The notes beneath the pieces are model-generated. The model did no database searches and was not told the DNA's origin. It saw only the letters and a list, made by a program, of their open reading frames with translations. From assembly GCF_000802305.1 (NCBI RefSeq), contig NZ_JTDK01000006.1:682001-746000 (forward strand): a stretch of 64,000 nt of DNA, given 5' to 3'. This document shows, piece after piece, positions 50,234 through 58,440 of this stretch; within the stretch, counting starts at the first letter, position 1, and each line of letters starts with the position of its first letter. The stretch is from Microbacterium mangrovi (GTDB lineage Bacteria > Actinomycetota > Actinomycetes > Actinomycetales > Microbacteriaceae). Made by a program: the position numbers and the translations under genes.

Positions 50234-51144
50234 CCGGCGCCGCGCACGACGCCGGCGCCCTGGATCGGTACACCGCCGCGTCGGAACGGGCGGCCGGGCG
50301 GATCATCGACGCCTATTCGACCTCGTTCGGGGCCGCGTGCCGGCTCCTGGGCCCGCGCCACCGCACCCACGTGCGCAACGTCTACGCGCTCGTGCGGGTG
50401 GCCGACGAACTCGTCGACGGCGCGACCGATGAGGCCGGGATCCCGCCGGAGCAGCAGCATCTCGCGCTCAGCCGCCTGGAGGCGGAGACCGGCGACGCGA
50501 TCGCGTCGGGGTACAGCAGCAACCCGATCGTGCACGCGTTCGCGCACACCGCCCGCGCCGCAGGGATCGACGCCGGCCTGGTGCGCCCGTTCTTCGCCTC
50601 GATGCGCGCCGACCTGCCGCCGGCGGAATGCGCGGATGCCGACCCCGTGGTGCGGTTCGACGAGCGGGCGCACCGCACCTACGTGTACGGATCCGCCGAG
50701 GTCGTCGGCCTCATGTGCCTGCGGGTCTTCCTCCGCGACGCGACCCGGACGCCCGACGAGCTCACGACCCTCGAGCACGGCGCCCGGCGCCTGGGCGCAG
50801 CGTTCCAGAACGTGAACTTCCTGCGCGACCTGGCCGACGACACCGAGCGTCTCGGCCGCAGCTACCTCAGCGCGAACGGTCGGATCGACGCCGAGGAGCA
50901 GCAGCGCTGGGTCGCGGTCATCCGCGCGCAGCTGGCGGACGCCGAGGCGGCGATCCCGCTGCTTCCCCGTGACGCGCGCCTTGCGGTCACCAGCGCCCTG
51001 CTGCTGTTCTCCCGGCTCACCGACCGGCTCGCGCGCACCCCCGCCGCCGAGCTGTACGAGCGGCGCATCCGGGTCCCCGCCGCGCAGAAGGCGTGGCTGT
51101 TCACCCGGGCGGCCCTCGATGTCGGGCGGGAGCGCGTGTCATGA
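50230..51144 (+). CDS. crtB: Phytoene synthase
   Basis: A 304-residue head-to-head prenyl synthase that condenses two GGPP. The two Asp-rich motifs are DELVD (in RVADELVDGA) and DLADD (in NFLRDLADDTERLGRSYL). Start ATG 50230 and stop both lie in 4-base overlaps with neighbours. Confidence 0.95.
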   Translation: MTGAAHDAGALDRYTAASERAAGRIIDAYSTSFGAACRLLGPRHRTHVRNVYALVRVADELVDGATDEAGIPPEQQHLALSRLEAETGDAIASGYSSNPIVHAFAHTARAAGIDAGLVRPFFASMRADLPPAECADADPVVRFDERAHRTYVYGSAEVVGLMCLRVFLRDATRTPDELTTLEHGARRLGAAFQNVNFLRDLADDTERLGRSYLSANGRIDAEEQQRWVAVIRAQLADAEAAIPLLPRDARLAVTSALLLFSRLTDRLARTPAAELYERRIRVPAAQKAWLFTRAALDVGRERVS

Positions 51145-52739
51145 CCTGGACGAGCGTCATCGGCGGCGGCGTGGCGGGCCTGGCCACCGCCGCACTGCTG
51201 GCCCACGAAGGACACCACGTCAAGCTGTTCGAACGCGGCGAGCGCCTCGGCGGCCGGGCCGGCATCCTCGAACGCGACGGCTTCCGCTTCGACACCGGGC
51301 CCTCCTGGTTCCTCATGCCGCGCGTGTACGACCACTTCTTCGAGCTTCTCGGCACGTCATCGGCGGAGCAGCTGGATCTGCGTCTCCTCGACCCCGGGTA
51401 CACCGTGTTCGCCGAACCCGGAGCGGGCGGCCGGCGACCCGCGGTGACGATCCCGTTCGGCACCGACCGGATCGCCGCCGTGTTCGACGGACTCGAACCG
51501 GGCACCGCCGGCATCCTCCGCGACCACGTCGCCTCCGCCGCGCACGCCTCCCGGCTCGCCGAAGAGCGCTTCCTCTACAACCCGTTCACCGCGCCCGGCT
51601 CCCTGCTGAGCGCCGACGTGCTCCGGGCGATGCCGCGCCTGCTCTCTCTGCTGGGTACGTCGCTGGACGCCTTCGTGTCGCGGCGCTTCGCGCACCCGGT
51701 GCTGCGGCAGGTGCTCGAGTACCCCGCGGTGTTCCTCGGCACCGATCCGCGCCGCGCGCCGGCGATGTACCACCTGATGAGCGCGCTCGACCTCGACGAC
51801 GGGGTCCGCTACCCGATGGGCGGGTTCTGGGGCCTCGTCGAACGGCTCACCGCACTCGCCGTCGACGCCGGCGTGCAGATCGTCACCGAGGCGGAGGTGA
51901 CGGCGATCCTGACGCAGGAGGAGCACGGCCGTCGCGCCGTCGCCGGGGTGCGGTGGCGGGATGCGTCCGGCACCGAGCATCTGCAGCACGCGAACAACGT
52001 CGTGTCGGCGGCCGACCTGCATCACACCGAGACGGTGCTGCTCGAGCAGGATGCCCGCACCTACCCGGAGCGGTGGTGGCGCGCCCGCGAGAGCGGACCC
52101 GGTGCGGTGATCGCGCTCCTCGGAGTCCGCGGTGAGCTCCCCGAGCTGGGTCACCACAGCCTGTTCTTCGCCCGCGACTGGGACGCCGGGTTCGACGCGA
52201 TCTTCGGCCTCCCGGGGTCCGTCCCGGATCCGGCGTCCCTCTACGTCTGCAAACCGAGCGCCACCGAGCCCGGCGTCGCCCCACCCGGTCACGAGAACCT
52301 CTTCGTGCTGATCCCCGTGCCCGCCGACCCGGGACTCGGCGCGGGCGGTGCGGACGGGCAGGGCGATCCGGCGATCGAGAGCGCGGTGGATGCCGCCATC
52401 GACCGGATCGCGGCGTGGGCGGGCATCCCCGACCTGCGGCAGCGGATCGTCGTGCGCGAGACGCTCGGACCCGCGGACTTCGCGAACGACTACCACTCCT
52501 GGCGGGGCGGGATGCTCGGGCCGTCGCACATCCTCCGGCAGAGCGCGATGTTCCGCGCCCGCAACCAGTCGTCCCGCGTCGATCGCCTCTACTACGCGGG
52601 GGCCACGACCGCGCCCGGGGTCGGGGTGCCGATGTGCCTGATCAGCGCGGAACTCGTGCTGAAGCGGATCCGCGGGGACTCCTCCGCCGGGCCGACGCAG
52701 CCGGTGCCGCGCAGGGTCCCGGCGGGGAGGGCCGGATGA
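51141..52739 (+). CDS. crtI: Phytoene desaturase
   Basis: A 532-residue FAD enzyme turning phytoene into lycopene. The dinucleotide motif VIGGGVAGLATAALLAHEGH is at the N-terminus; DTGPSWFLMP and C-terminal YYAGATTAPGVGVPMCLISAELV are CrtI signatures. ATG 51141 overlaps the crtB stop. The last 25 residues (Pro/Arg-rich) are not conserved. Confidence 0.95.
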   Translation: MTWTSVIGGGVAGLATAALLAHEGHHVKLFERGERLGGRAGILERDGFRFDTGPSWFLMPRVYDHFFELLGTSSAEQLDLRLLDPGYTVFAEPGAGGRRPAVTIPFGTDRIAAVFDGLEPGTAGILRDHVASAAHASRLAEERFLYNPFTAPGSLLSADVLRAMPRLLSLLGTSLDAFVSRRFAHPVLRQVLEYPAVFLGTDPRRAPAMYHLMSALDLDDGVRYPMGGFWGLVERLTALAVDAGVQIVTEAEVTAILTQEEHGRRAVAGVRWRDASGTEHLQHANNVVSAADLHHTETVLLEQDARTYPERWWRARESGPGAVIALLGVRGELPELGHHSLFFARDWDAGFDAIFGLPGSVPDPASLYVCKPSATEPGVAPPGHENLFVLIPVPADPGLGAGGADGQGDPAIESAVDAAIDRIAAWAGIPDLRQRIVVRETLGPADFANDYHSWRGGMLGPSHILRQSAMFRARNQSSRVDRLYYAGATTAPGVGVPMCLISAELVLKRIRGDSSAGPTQPVPRRVPAGRAG

Positions 52740-53110
52740 CGTCGCCCGTGTACCTGCTGTGCCTCGTGCTCGCAATGGGAGGGATGCTGCTGATCGATCG
52801 GCGGTTCCGCCTGTTCTTCTGGCGGGACGCCGCCGCGGCGGCGCTCGTGACCGCTGCGGGCACCGGATTCCTGCTGCTGTGGGATGCGGCCGGAATCGCG
52901 ACGGGGATCTTCCGGCACGGATCGGCGGCGATCTCGACGGGGATCCTGCTCGCCCCCGCGCTGCCGCTCGAGGAACCGGTGTTCCTGGTGTTCCTGGTGC
53001 AGACCACGATGGTCCTGTACACCGGCGCCGATCGTCTGCTCGCCGCACGCGAGCGGCGGATGCGGGAGCGACGCGGGCTGCCGGCGCGAGAGCGGCAGGT
53101 GCGCCGGTGA
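52736..53110 (+). CDS. crtYe: Lycopene cyclase subunit CrtYe-like
   Basis: A 124-residue membrane protein with three hydrophobic segments. The PLEEPVFLVF motif near residue 75 is the family signature of the heterodimeric lycopene cyclases CrtYe/CrtYf (or CrtYc/CrtYd). It works with the cyclase half fused to the next gene's product. Both ends overlap neighbours by 4 bases. Confidence 0.9.
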   Translation: MTSPVYLLCLVLAMGGMLLIDRRFRLFFWRDAAAAALVTAAGTGFLLLWDAAGIATGIFRHGSAAISTGILLAPALPLEEPVFLVFLVQTTMVLYTGADRLLAARERRMRERRGLPARERQVRR

Positions 53111-54291
53111 CCGATGCGGCCCTCACCGTGGGCTTTCTGGCGTGCGCGGCGGTGCTCGCCGCGGTGGTGCGGCGCGCGACGGGTCCGGGAGGAGTGCGCT
53201 GGGCGGCGGTGGGGGTCGCCGGGCTCGGACTCGGTGTCCTCACCGCGGCGTTCGACAGCCTGATGATCGGCGCCGGGCTCTTCGACTACGCGCCCGCGCT
53301 GATCTCCGGCATCCGCATCGGCGCGGCGCCGGTCGAGGACTTCGGCTACCCGGTCGCCGCCGTCGTGCTGCTGCCGCCCCTGTGGGCGCTCCTGACGAAG
53401 ACCGACGGCATCCGTGCGGGCGACCTGCTGCGGCACGCCTTCGTCGCCTCGCGGCCGGTGAGCTGGATCAACACGGCCTTCCCGTTCGGCGCGGCCATGC
53501 TGCTCACGACCGGCCGGGTGGACTGGGTGCTCGCGGTCGGCGCCCTCTACTACCTCATCCCCTACAACCTGGCCATGTACGGGATCAACGATGTCTTCGA
53601 CTACGCGTCCGACCTCGCCAACCCGCGCAAGGGCGGCATCGAGGGCGCCCTGCTTCCCCCGCGGCTGCACCGGCCGCTGCTCTGGCTGGTGGCAGCGGTC
53701 AACGTGCCGTTCCTCATCGTCCTGGTCGCGGTCGGCGGCCCCGCCTCCTGGGCGGCGATCGCCGTGAGCACCTTCGCGGTCGTCGCCTATTCGGTGCCGG
53801 GGCTGCGCTTCAAGGAGCGTCCTGTGCTCGACTCGATCACCTCCAGCACGCACTTCGTCAGTCCCGCGGTCGTCGGGCTCACCCTCGCCGGGGCATCGTT
53901 CGATGCGGCCACGGTGACGGTGCTCGCGGCGTTCTTCCTGTGGGGAATGGCGGCGCACGCGTTCGGGGCCGTGCAGGACATCCAGCCGGACCGGGATGCC
54001 GGGATCGGGTCGATCGCGACGTTCTTCGGCGCCGCGCGCACCGTCCGCCTCGCTCTCGTGCTGTGGGTCGCCAGCGGCCTGCTGATGCTGACGACCCCCT
54101 GGCCGGGCCCGCTGGCCGCGATCCTCGCCGTCCCGTACATCGTCAACTGCGCGCCGTACTTCCGGGTGTCCGAGGCTGCGGCCGAGACCACGAACCGCGC
54201 CTGGCGCCGGTTCCTCTGGATCAACTACGTCACAGGTTTTCTCGCCACCATGATCATGATCCTGGCCTGGGCGTCATCCCGAGGCATGTGA
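53107..54291 (+). CDS. crtYf-crtEb: Fused lycopene cyclase subunit (CrtYf-like) and prenyltransferase (CrtEb-like elongase)
   Basis: A 394-residue fusion. Residues 1-~100 are a second lycopene cyclase half with PVEDFGYP at 75-82 in three membrane segments. Residues ~110-394 are a UbiA-type prenyltransferase with NDVFDYASD at 161-169 and DIQPDRDAG, as in lycopene elongase CrtEb, which adds two C5 units to lycopene. In Corynebacterium the two are separate genes; a comparable fusion (LbtBC) is known from Dietzia. Together with CrtYe this predicts a C50 carotenoid (decaprenoxanthin or C.p.450 type). The GTG start overlaps crtYe by 4 bases. No break or stop lies at the junction. Confidence 0.9.
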   Translation: MTDAALTVGFLACAAVLAAVVRRATGPGGVRWAAVGVAGLGLGVLTAAFDSLMIGAGLFDYAPALISGIRIGAAPVEDFGYPVAAVVLLPPLWALLTKTDGIRAGDLLRHAFVASRPVSWINTAFPFGAAMLLTTGRVDWVLAVGALYYLIPYNLAMYGINDVFDYASDLANPRKGGIEGALLPPRLHRPLLWLVAAVNVPFLIVLVAVGGPASWAAIAVSTFAVVAYSVPGLRFKERPVLDSITSSTHFVSPAVVGLTLAGASFDAATVTVLAAFFLWGMAAHAFGAVQDIQPDRDAGIGSIATFFGAARTVRLALVLWVASGLLMLTTPWPGPLAAILAVPYIVNCAPYFRVSEAAAETTNRAWRRFLWINYVTGFLATMIMILAWASSRGM

Positions 54292-55237: not shown

Positions 55238-56089
55238 TCAGCCGCGCGGGCTCGCCGCAGCCGGTTCGGCCGGCGCTGCGGCGAAGGCGACGACGGCGTC
55301 GAGCACGTCGGGAGCGGCCAGGATGCCGTTGTGCCCGCGCCCCGTGGTGCGCAGCAGCGCGGAGGGACCGGGCCAGTGGGCGACCACGGCGTCGGCCGCG
55401 ACCGGGGGAACCGCCCGATCGGCGTCGTCGTGGACGACCAGGAGCGCTGCCGCGGTTCCGGCGGCCGGACGGGAGCGGTCCATCGCGATGGACGCCATCA
55501 CCGGGCCGAGGCGACGGGCCAGCGCATCGTTCGTCCCGGAGGCGACGGCATCCGGCAGTCCGGCCTGTGCGGCATACGCCTTCATCACGGCATCCGTCGA
55601 CGGTGGTGCGGCGATCGACACGATCCGCCCGTGCACGAGGCCCGCGAGGCTCGCGCGGCGCACGGCCAGTCCCCCGAAGGAGTGGCCCACCACCAGATCG
55701 AAGCCGCCCACGGCCTCGTCGAGCACGCGGATCGCCTCGATCCACATCCCGATGTCGGCGGTCATCCCGCGCGAGGCCCCGTGGGCCGGAGCGTCGAAGG
55801 CGATGACGGTGGCGCCGGGCTGGAGGCGAGACACCAGTGCAGCGAACTGCGCGGCCCGCCCGCTCCAGCCGTGCACGAGCAGCACACGACGCTCGCCGTC
55901 GCCCCAGCGGTGGACGCGGATGCGGTGGCGCCCCGCGTCGACCGTCGTGGTGCGGGCGCGGTCCATCACCGGCCGCTCCTCCGGCCGCACGGCCATGCGT
56001 CGGCCGGGAAGCAGCATCAGCCCCGCCGCGACGCGGGCCGTGACCTCGGGCATCGTCCGGAAGGCGATATCGAGCAAACGTGTGCGCAT
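55238..56089 (-). CDS. Alpha/beta hydrolase
   Basis: A 283-residue hydrolase. The nucleophile elbow GHSFGG and oxyanion region LLVHGWSGRAAQF are clear; the catalytic Asp and His lie in LLVVHDDADRAV and TGRGHNGI. The N-terminal ~45 residues are basic and hydrophobic and may bind the membrane. The start ATG 56089 is seven bases beyond a -10 (leaderless). It is divergent from a TetR gene and shares a 28-bp palindrome with it. Substrate unknown. Confidence 0.9.
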   Translation of the reverse strand: MRTRLLDIAFRTMPEVTARVAAGLMLLPGRRMAVRPEERPVMDRARTTTVDAGRHRIRVHRWGDGERRVLLVHGWSGRAAQFAALVSRLQPGATVIAFDAPAHGASRGMTADIGMWIEAIRVLDEAVGGFDLVVGHSFGGLAVRRASLAGLVHGRIVSIAAPPSTDAVMKAYAAQAGLPDAVASGTNDALARRLGPVMASIAMDRSRPAAGTAAALLVVHDDADRAVPPVAADAVVAHWPGPSALLRTTGRGHNGILAAPDVLDAVVAFAAAPAEPAAASPRG

Positions 56090-56095
56090 GATCCA

Positions 56096-56123
56096 AACTA
56101 TACATACGATCGTGCGTATAGTT
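56096..56123. promoter_or_regulatory. 28-bp operator with two divergent -10 elements
   Basis: The 28 bases are palindromic except for two symmetric positions: arms AACTATAC and GTATAGTT, core ACGATCGT. Each arm contains TATAGT, one on each strand, seven bases before the respective ATG (56130 rightward, 56089 leftward). So both promoters overlap one operator, and both mRNAs would be leaderless. Confidence 0.8.
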
Positions 56124-56129
56124 AATCCC

Positions 56130-56777
56130 ATGAGCACGATCGAGACCGACGGACGCCGCGCGCGCGGCGAGGCCTCCCGCCGCCGCATCCTCGCCGAATC
56201 GACCGACCTCGCCACCACCGTCGGGCTCGACGGGGTCACGATCGGCCTCCTCGCCGAGACCACCGGCCGCAGCAAGAGCAGCATCTCGACGCTGTTCGGC
56301 ACCAAGGAGGCTCTGCAGCTGGCGACCGTGGACGAGGCGGCCGACGTGTTCCGGCGTGAGGTCGTCGAACCGGCGGGCGGAGTGCCCCGCGGCCTGCCGC
56401 GCGTCGCCGCCCTCCTCGCGGCGCTGCTGGCGTACTCGCGCGGGCGGGTGTTCTCCGGCGGGTGCTTCTTCCAGGCGTGCGTGGCCGACATGGGCTCCAA
56501 GCCCGGCCCCGTCCGCACGGCGCTCCAGACGCACATCGCGCAGTGGGAGGGCTATCTCCAGGGTCAGGTCGCCGTCGCGTTCGAGCGGGGCGAGCTCCGC
56601 CACGGCGATGCGCAGACCGTCGCGTTCACCCTCCTCGCGCTGTATGAGCTGTCCAACGCCCGCTCGGTTCTCACCGGGTCGGACGCGCCGTACCGCGTCG
56701 CCGCGGCCGGGATGACGGCGGTGCTCGACGCGGCCGGTGCCGACCCCGTGCCGCCGACGCTGAGCGCCTACGAATAG
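56130..56777 (+). CDS. TetR family transcriptional regulator
   Basis: A 215-residue repressor. The helix-turn-helix spans about 30-58 (LDGVTIGLLAETTGRSKSSISTLFGTKE); the C-terminal domain has the TetR_C type GGCFFQACVADMGSKPGPVR pattern. ATG 56130 follows the -10 by seven bases. It is expected to bind the adjacent palindrome and control itself and the hydrolase. Confidence 0.92.
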   Translation: MSTIETDGRRARGEASRRRILAESTDLATTVGLDGVTIGLLAETTGRSKSSISTLFGTKEALQLATVDEAADVFRREVVEPAGGVPRGLPRVAALLAALLAYSRGRVFSGGCFFQACVADMGSKPGPVRTALQTHIAQWEGYLQGQVAVAFERGELRHGDAQTVAFTLLALYELSNARSVLTGSDAPYRVAAAGMTAVLDAAGADPVPPTLSAYE

Positions 56778-57681: not shown

Positions 57682-58440
57682 TCAGGCGGCGGTCAGCGTG
57701 GAGTCCCGCTCCGCAGCGGCATCCAGCGCGGTCGTCGCCGCGCGACGCCCTTCGGCGATGAGCCGCGGCACGTCGGACATCGTCCACTGCGCCATGCGCT
57801 CCATCTCCGGCTGGATCAGCACGACCGACGGGTCGGCGGTGAGTTCGGCGGTCTGGGTGACGGTGCGCATCATGCGCACGTTCTCCCACTTGGCGTGCAG
57901 GCGCACGACGATCGTGCGGGAAGCGCCCAGGGTGCGGGCCGCACCCACCGGGACGTTGTCGATCATCCCGCCGTCGGCGAGGAGGAGTCCGTCCCGGCGC
58001 ACGGGCGGGAGGAGGCCCGGCACGGCGATGGTCGAGCGCAGCGCCGAACTGAGCGGACCCCGGTCGAGGACGACGCCCCGACGGGCGCGCAGGTCGGTCG
58101 CGAAGGCGCCGAAACGCCGATCGAACTCCTCGATGAGGGGGTCGGACCCGAACATGCCGTGCACGGCGTCCGTGACGGCGTGCGTGTCGAGCAGACCCCA
58201 GCGGGGACGGAACGACCAGCGCGCGATCGAACTCCAGCGAAAGGCGCGGGCCGCCTTCTCGATCGCCGGGTGATCGACGCGCGCCGCGTAGGCCGCGGCG
58301 ACCAGCGCGCCCGAACTCGTCCCGGTGACGATGCCGGGCCGGATGCCGCGCTCTTCGAGAACCTGGAGCACGCCGACGTGCGCCGCGCCGAATGCGCCGC
58401 CACCGCCGAGCACCAGTCCGAGGGTGGGGTCATCCGTCAT
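57682..58440 (-). CDS. Patatin-like phospholipase
   Basis: A 252-residue lipid acyl hydrolase. The oxyanion motif GGGGAFG is at 12-18, nucleophile Ser42 in GTSSG, and the catalytic Asp in LADGGMIDNVPV. Complete dyad, no signal peptide or transmembrane segment. ATG 58440 has CAGGAGA upstream. A bacterial patatin (PNPLA/RssA-type) acting on membrane lipids; single gene. Confidence 0.93.
   Translation of the reverse strand: MTDDPTLGLVLGGGGAFGAAHVGVLQVLEERGIRPGIVTGTSSGALVAAAYAARVDHPAIEKAARAFRWSSIARWSFRPRWGLLDTHAVTDAVHGMFGSDPLIEEFDRRFGAFATDLRARRGVVLDRGPLSSALRSTIAVPGLLPPVRRDGLLLADGGMIDNVPVGAARTLGASRTIVVRLHAKWENVRMMRTVTQTAELTADPSVVLIQPEMERMAQWTMSDVPRLIAEGRRAATTALDAAAERDSTLTAA

Follow-up and report, generated by a model that had tools for sequence, protein, structure and literature searches.

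A palindrome between divergent TetR-family and hydrolase genes of Microbacterium mangrovi: a probable single operator for two leaderless promoters

The 40-bp spacer between a TetR-family regulator gene and a divergent α/β-hydrolase gene of Microbacterium mangrovi holds a 28-bp palindrome, which is likely to serve the neighbouring TetR protein as its only operator. Both -10 boxes lie in its arms, both genes would be repressed from it and both mRNAs would be leaderless, the arrangement being derived from a two-operator unit; in this reading as a whole our confidence is fairly high. The window analysed here is the whole 64,000-nucleotide stretch of DNA, and all positions refer to it (Table 1).

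Table 1 Features of the divergent locus (window positions).
Feature	Position	Strand	Remarks
α/β-Hydrolase gene	55238-56089	-	Pfam PF12697 (Abhydrolase_6), E=2.5e-10, above its cut-off
Weak -35-like CAAACT (2/6), TetR promoter	56094-56099	+	17-bp spacer
28-bp palindrome, putative sole operator for the TetR regulator	56096-56123		halves AACTATACATACGA and TCGTGCGTATAGTT; 12/14 half-positions paired
-10 box TATAGT, hydrolase gene	56097-56102	-	7 nt, then ATG at 56089
18-bp operator core TACATACGATCGTGCGTA	56101-56118		3 mismatches to family consensus
-10 box TATAGT, TetR gene	56117-56122	+	7 nt, then ATG at 56130
-35-like TTAACT (4/6), hydrolase promoter	56120-56125	-	17-bp spacer; overlaps TetR -10 box
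TetR-family regulator gene (TetR_C_13)	56130-56777	+	Pfam PF16925, E=2.1e-25

The two start codons are 41 bases apart (56089 and 56130), and the spacer has 40% G+C, the window 70.6%. The regulator is assigned by its carboxy-terminal domain, its amino-terminal match to PF00440 (TetR_N, 21.6 bits) lying below the Pfam cut-off of 24. The closest solved structures by sequence are 2hyj for the TetR protein (E=1.3e-28) and 6qe2 for the hydrolase (E=6e-7); neither match from this sequence search indicates a ligand. Genus loci that hold this TetR gene have it beside a divergent target, the divergent hydrolase gene being located in 107/108 of them (the remaining one, L095, ends before it). Each start codon is surrounded by CATG (56087-56090 and 56129-56132), so an ATG is present on the other strand too at each end of the spacer; these opposite-strand ATGs lie 14 codons upstream of the opposite gene, in frame with it. 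Adjoining the switch, the plus strand at 51093-54288 encodes a flavin amine oxidoreductase, which we take to be phytoene-desaturase-like, and a UbiA-type prenyltransferase; a membrane-type ORF that matched nothing separates the two, and these genes look like part of a carotenoid gene cluster. A patatin-like phospholipase gene (Pfam E=1.5e-30) is found nearby, at 57763-58428 on the minus strand.

The initial annotation had described a 28-bp palindrome with one TATAGT per arm, each seven bases from an ATG, and this is correct to the base. The two boxes face outwards and are 14 bp apart. Its further statement that the promoters are nearly identical is overstated: they share TATAGT and the 7-nt spacing, but only 28/39 positions agree (counted back from the start codons) and the -35 matches differ. 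That asymmetry recurs in the three species with this arrangement (see below), where the hydrolase -35 scores 4/6 at a 17-bp spacer in each (TTAACT, TTAACT and TTGAGT) and the TetR -35 scores 2/6, 3/6 and 2/6.

Pairing at 12/14 half-positions arose in 17 of 200,000 mononucleotide shuffles of the spacer. By itself, palindromy is weak evidence, because three other 28-mers in the 64-kb window pair equally well. TATANT followed by ATG or GTG at 6-7 nt occurs twice in the window, both times at this spacer. Allowing up to 3 mismatches, the 4.4-Mb genome contains no second match to the 28-bp site and no other match to the 18-bp consensus, so the system looks like a local switch. A palindrome formed by chance was also considered; the palindrome count alone is insufficient to dismiss it, and it is ruled out by conservation.

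Searching 366 genomes of the genus, the window's own included, recovered the TetR protein in 108 (E up to 1e-35, one locus per genome), from which an 18-bp operator family consensus, TACGAACGATCGTTCGTA, was drawn. The initial annotation had assigned the palindrome to the adjacent TetR protein, and the comparison bears this out: every one of the 108 loci carries a site upstream of the orthologue at up to 6 mismatches, 105 carrying two and three carrying one. At up to 4 mismatches, 102 loci retain two sites and 106 at least one. Paired operators are spaced 23 bp centre to centre in 63 loci, 22 bp in 30 and 19-40 bp in the other 12. As a control, 100 mirrored scrambles of the consensus were scored on the same loci, giving at 4 mismatches a mean of 0.02 loci with two sites (largest 2) and 0.23 with at least one (largest 21), and at 6 mismatches means of 1.04 and 3.62; scrambles near the consensus reached 97 loci with two sites and 105 with at least one at the looser threshold.

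Since the consensus was built from the loci that were scored, an outside check on distant relatives matters. A site with no more than 4 mismatches lies in the 400 bp upstream in 21 of 77 such loci (34-44% identity), 13 of them in Nocardia; scrambles averaged 0.065 loci, with a largest value of 3. Ten of the 21, all Nocardia, possess two sites 25-27 bp apart. A palindromic operator in the shared spacer is thus conserved with its regulator, and this conservation is the strongest support for a predicted operator. The conserved part is the 18-bp core, from which the three single-operator species deviate by 3-4 mismatches relative to consensus, and the region around the recognition helix is common to single-operator and two-operator TetR orthologues. 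Left out of the counts were a second copy of the window's own locus (L081), two rows whose hydrolase match is not the divergent partner (L033 and L019), one row that contains L098 (L002) and one from the same place as L085 (L126). For L120, two operators were found in a wider upstream search, the narrower region having shown one.

Spacing supports the leaderless starts proposed in the initial annotation. Upstream of the TetR gene, the gap between TANNNT and the start codon is 6 nt in 105/108 genus loci and 7 nt in the window and L098; for L094, where the script had picked an earlier GTG, inspection by eye gives TAACAT 6 nt before an ATG. For the hydrolase, the first ATG (taken as the start in single-operator loci) follows TATAGT by 6-7 nt in all three single-operator species; it is 10-11 nt away from the operator core, which is also the distance for the TetR gene. 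None of the listed hydrolase starts in these loci is preceded by GGAG, GAGG or AGGA, the strict Shine-Dalgarno motif applied here; a looser search chose internal starts in two of the three. The actinobacterial leaderless pattern, with TANNNT about 6-7 nt from the start and no room for a Shine-Dalgarno sequence, is therefore present at both genes and in all three species. In 400 kb of the window's own chromosome, 85 starts have TANNNT at 5-8 nt, versus 13-24 at six control spacings.

The two-operator loci differ on the hydrolase side. One of the three motifs precedes an in-frame hydrolase start in 98/104 of them, these starts lying 14-41 nt beyond the operator core, and TANNNT at the position equivalent to the window's hydrolase TATAGT is present in only 62/104, so that the hydrolase promoter is less uniform. 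From these patterns, the TetR gene of a two-operator locus looks leaderless and its hydrolase gene leadered. Leaderless mRNAs are common in actinobacteria, a share of 33% being given for Corynebacterium glutamicum in the cited part of PMC5401885. A pattern scan of 400 kb of the window's own genome (C52:280001-680000), which includes some false starts, listed nine further divergent pairs (among L217-L236) in which both starts look leaderless, none exceeding 10/14 pairing. A divergent leaderless pair is accordingly not rare in this genome, and the shared palindrome is the unusual part. One of the nine pairs has starts 24 bases apart and apparently a single shared -10.

Where did the single-operator form come from? 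Within the genus it is restricted to the window's genome and two sister species (L098, lying wholly within L002, Microbacterium sp. ASV49, and L099), each with one site in place of a tandem pair serving one promoter each. Their TetR proteins form one clade (support 100/100), nested in a 72-row group (100/99) whose other 69 rows are two-operator, in a tree of 131 rows, of which only 18 represent other genera of the order and five are distant. The single-operator state is thus confined to one clade of three species, and its position among two-operator relatives indicates that the compact form is probably derived from the two-operator unit. Because a long stem (1.01 changes per column) leads to the clade, its exact place in the 72-row group is less sure.

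Loci elsewhere in the order (L193-L215, with L203 repeating L183) were inspected outside the 108 count. All nine loci from another genus of the same family carry at least two sites (L195, L196, L198-L202, L204 and L205), and L003 and L197 carry two each, both weak (6 mismatches each). With up to 6 mismatches allowed, the search picked up just one site in 7/23 same-order loci (L206, L208, L210, L211, L212, L214 and L215), and likewise in L097. In L208, L210, L212, L214 and L215 that site is well away from the TetR start and not over the TetR -10 box, and some one-site loci of the order still show what by eye looks like a decayed second site. In L211, from another family, the one site has 5 mismatches and the hydrolase leader carries GGAG; perhaps this is an independent collapse that kept its leader. 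L211 and the other six one-site loci call into question compaction as a unique event.

Could the direction be reversed, with one operator ancestral and the two-operator form produced by duplication? Direction rests on parsimony, the one-site loci just described can be read this way and L211 looks like a real single site. Yet the single-operator clade is nested in the tree, the nine same-family loci from another genus have at least two sites each, two sites are present in ten of the 21 site-bearing distant loci, and L003 and L197 add two weak sites each; we therefore give duplication hardly any credence. Scarcely more probable is a site bound by some other regulator, or a merely symmetric promoter lacking an operator role. 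The -10 boxes alone would yield part of the symmetry, but the conserved core (ACGAACGATCGTTCG) lies between them, occurs in two copies in 105/108 orthologous loci, is also doubled at 25-27 bp in the ten Nocardia loci and accompanies this TetR gene, with no further match in the genome at up to 3 mismatches.

More deserving of attention is the number of dimers. QacR places two dimers on its 28-bp operator, and the length of the present site and its core of repeated CG-NN steps would suit a palindrome that, although single, still acts as a double site. The conserved part is only an 18-bp core, the usual site size for one TetR-type dimer, and binding of two dimers is accordingly unlikely, if the most serious of the alternatives. 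It is doubtful, to a greater degree, that the hydrolase has a leader and starts instead at codon 13, an internal ATG, leaving only the TetR gene leaderless. All three single-operator species do have an in-frame ATG 46-47 nt past the operator core, and the hydrolase is leadered in most relatives. Against this, the codon-13 ATG has no preceding GGAG, GAGG or AGGA, the spacing from TATAGT to the first ATG is kept at 6-7 nt in all three, and counting from the first ATG puts the HGW-type motif at residue index 71 in each. That index is near the 75-77 seen in 52/64 loci where the motif was found (43/107 had none); codon 13 would give 59.

With one operator shared by two leaderless genes as the preferred reading, the switch would work as follows. 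The TetR protein on the palindrome would cover both -10 boxes, and as each arm holds the -10 of one promoter, a repressor on this one site should block the hydrolase gene and its own gene together. A ligand, perhaps related to the hydrolase substrate, may release it. Both transcripts would then have their 5' ends at the start codon or directly beside it, and translation would proceed without a Shine-Dalgarno sequence. Since both promoters occupy the same 40 bp, two polymerases should be unable to use them at once; given its better -35, which overlaps the TetR -10, versus the weaker TetR -35, the hydrolase side may win once repression lifts. In the older ancestor, two tandem operators would have served one promoter each, and the compact form would follow from the common one if a 23-bp operator unit and part of the hydrolase leader were lost. 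A fuller scenario, in which a tandem two-operator switch, one gene leaderless and the other leadered, shrank to a 41-bp element, has roughly an even chance of being right. In that scenario, one operator and two leaderless promoters that exclude each other would link repression and polymerase competition to leaderless translation of both the repressor and its target, and the regulator would have evolved fast thereafter, in keeping with the long stem of its clade.

Parts of this design have precedents. At the Escherichia coli acrR-acrA bidirectional promoter, the TetR-family auto-repressor AcrR represses both directions from overlapping divergent promoters whose polymerases can compete, as far as the cited part of PMC12825309 describes it. 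One -10 element serves both directions there, a type that the two separate boxes in the operator arms exclude for the present spacer; both mRNAs here look leaderless, and the word does not occur in the main text of PMC12825309. AcuR of Rhodobacter sphaeroides is likewise a TetR-family repressor made from a leaderless mRNA, with an inverted-repeat operator overlapping its own promoter (PMC3017554, in part), but it belongs to one operon read in one direction, whose downstream genes have Shine-Dalgarno sites. The classical leaderless repressors, cI of lambda and tetR of Tn1721, share this mode of repressor synthesis, and the gene opposite is not described as leaderless in the portions of PMC3848588 and PMC3017554 used here. 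Overlapping divergent promoters and leaderless C genes make the cited part of PMC5333194 a general parallel only. The genus's own two-operator unit (105/108 loci) has orthologous genes, the same operator core and an apparently leaderless TetR gene; unlike the window's locus, it has two operators, usually a Shine-Dalgarno-like hydrolase leader and about 65-97 bases from start to start, compared with 41.

Our searches of the open literature turned up no report on this gene pair, on one palindrome serving two leaderless divergent genes or on the origin of such a palindrome from a two-operator unit. Taken singly, a leaderless TetR gene, a shared operator and a divergent leaderless pair are known or common features; their combination in one palindrome would be the new part. 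The initial annotation is right in substance and its interpretation is supported by the comparative sequence data, while the two operators of 105/108 relatives and the -35 difference go beyond what it could see. At the sequence level, it is well supported that the locus is a compacted version of a familiar switch whose evolutionary background is clear. One genus thus appears to hold both designs among orthologous proteins, two operators with a leadered target or one operator with a leaderless target, which allows a direct test of how operator number and leader loss bear on tightness, noise and the balance of repressor and target. If the reading is true, the compaction would be a natural experiment in promoter design.
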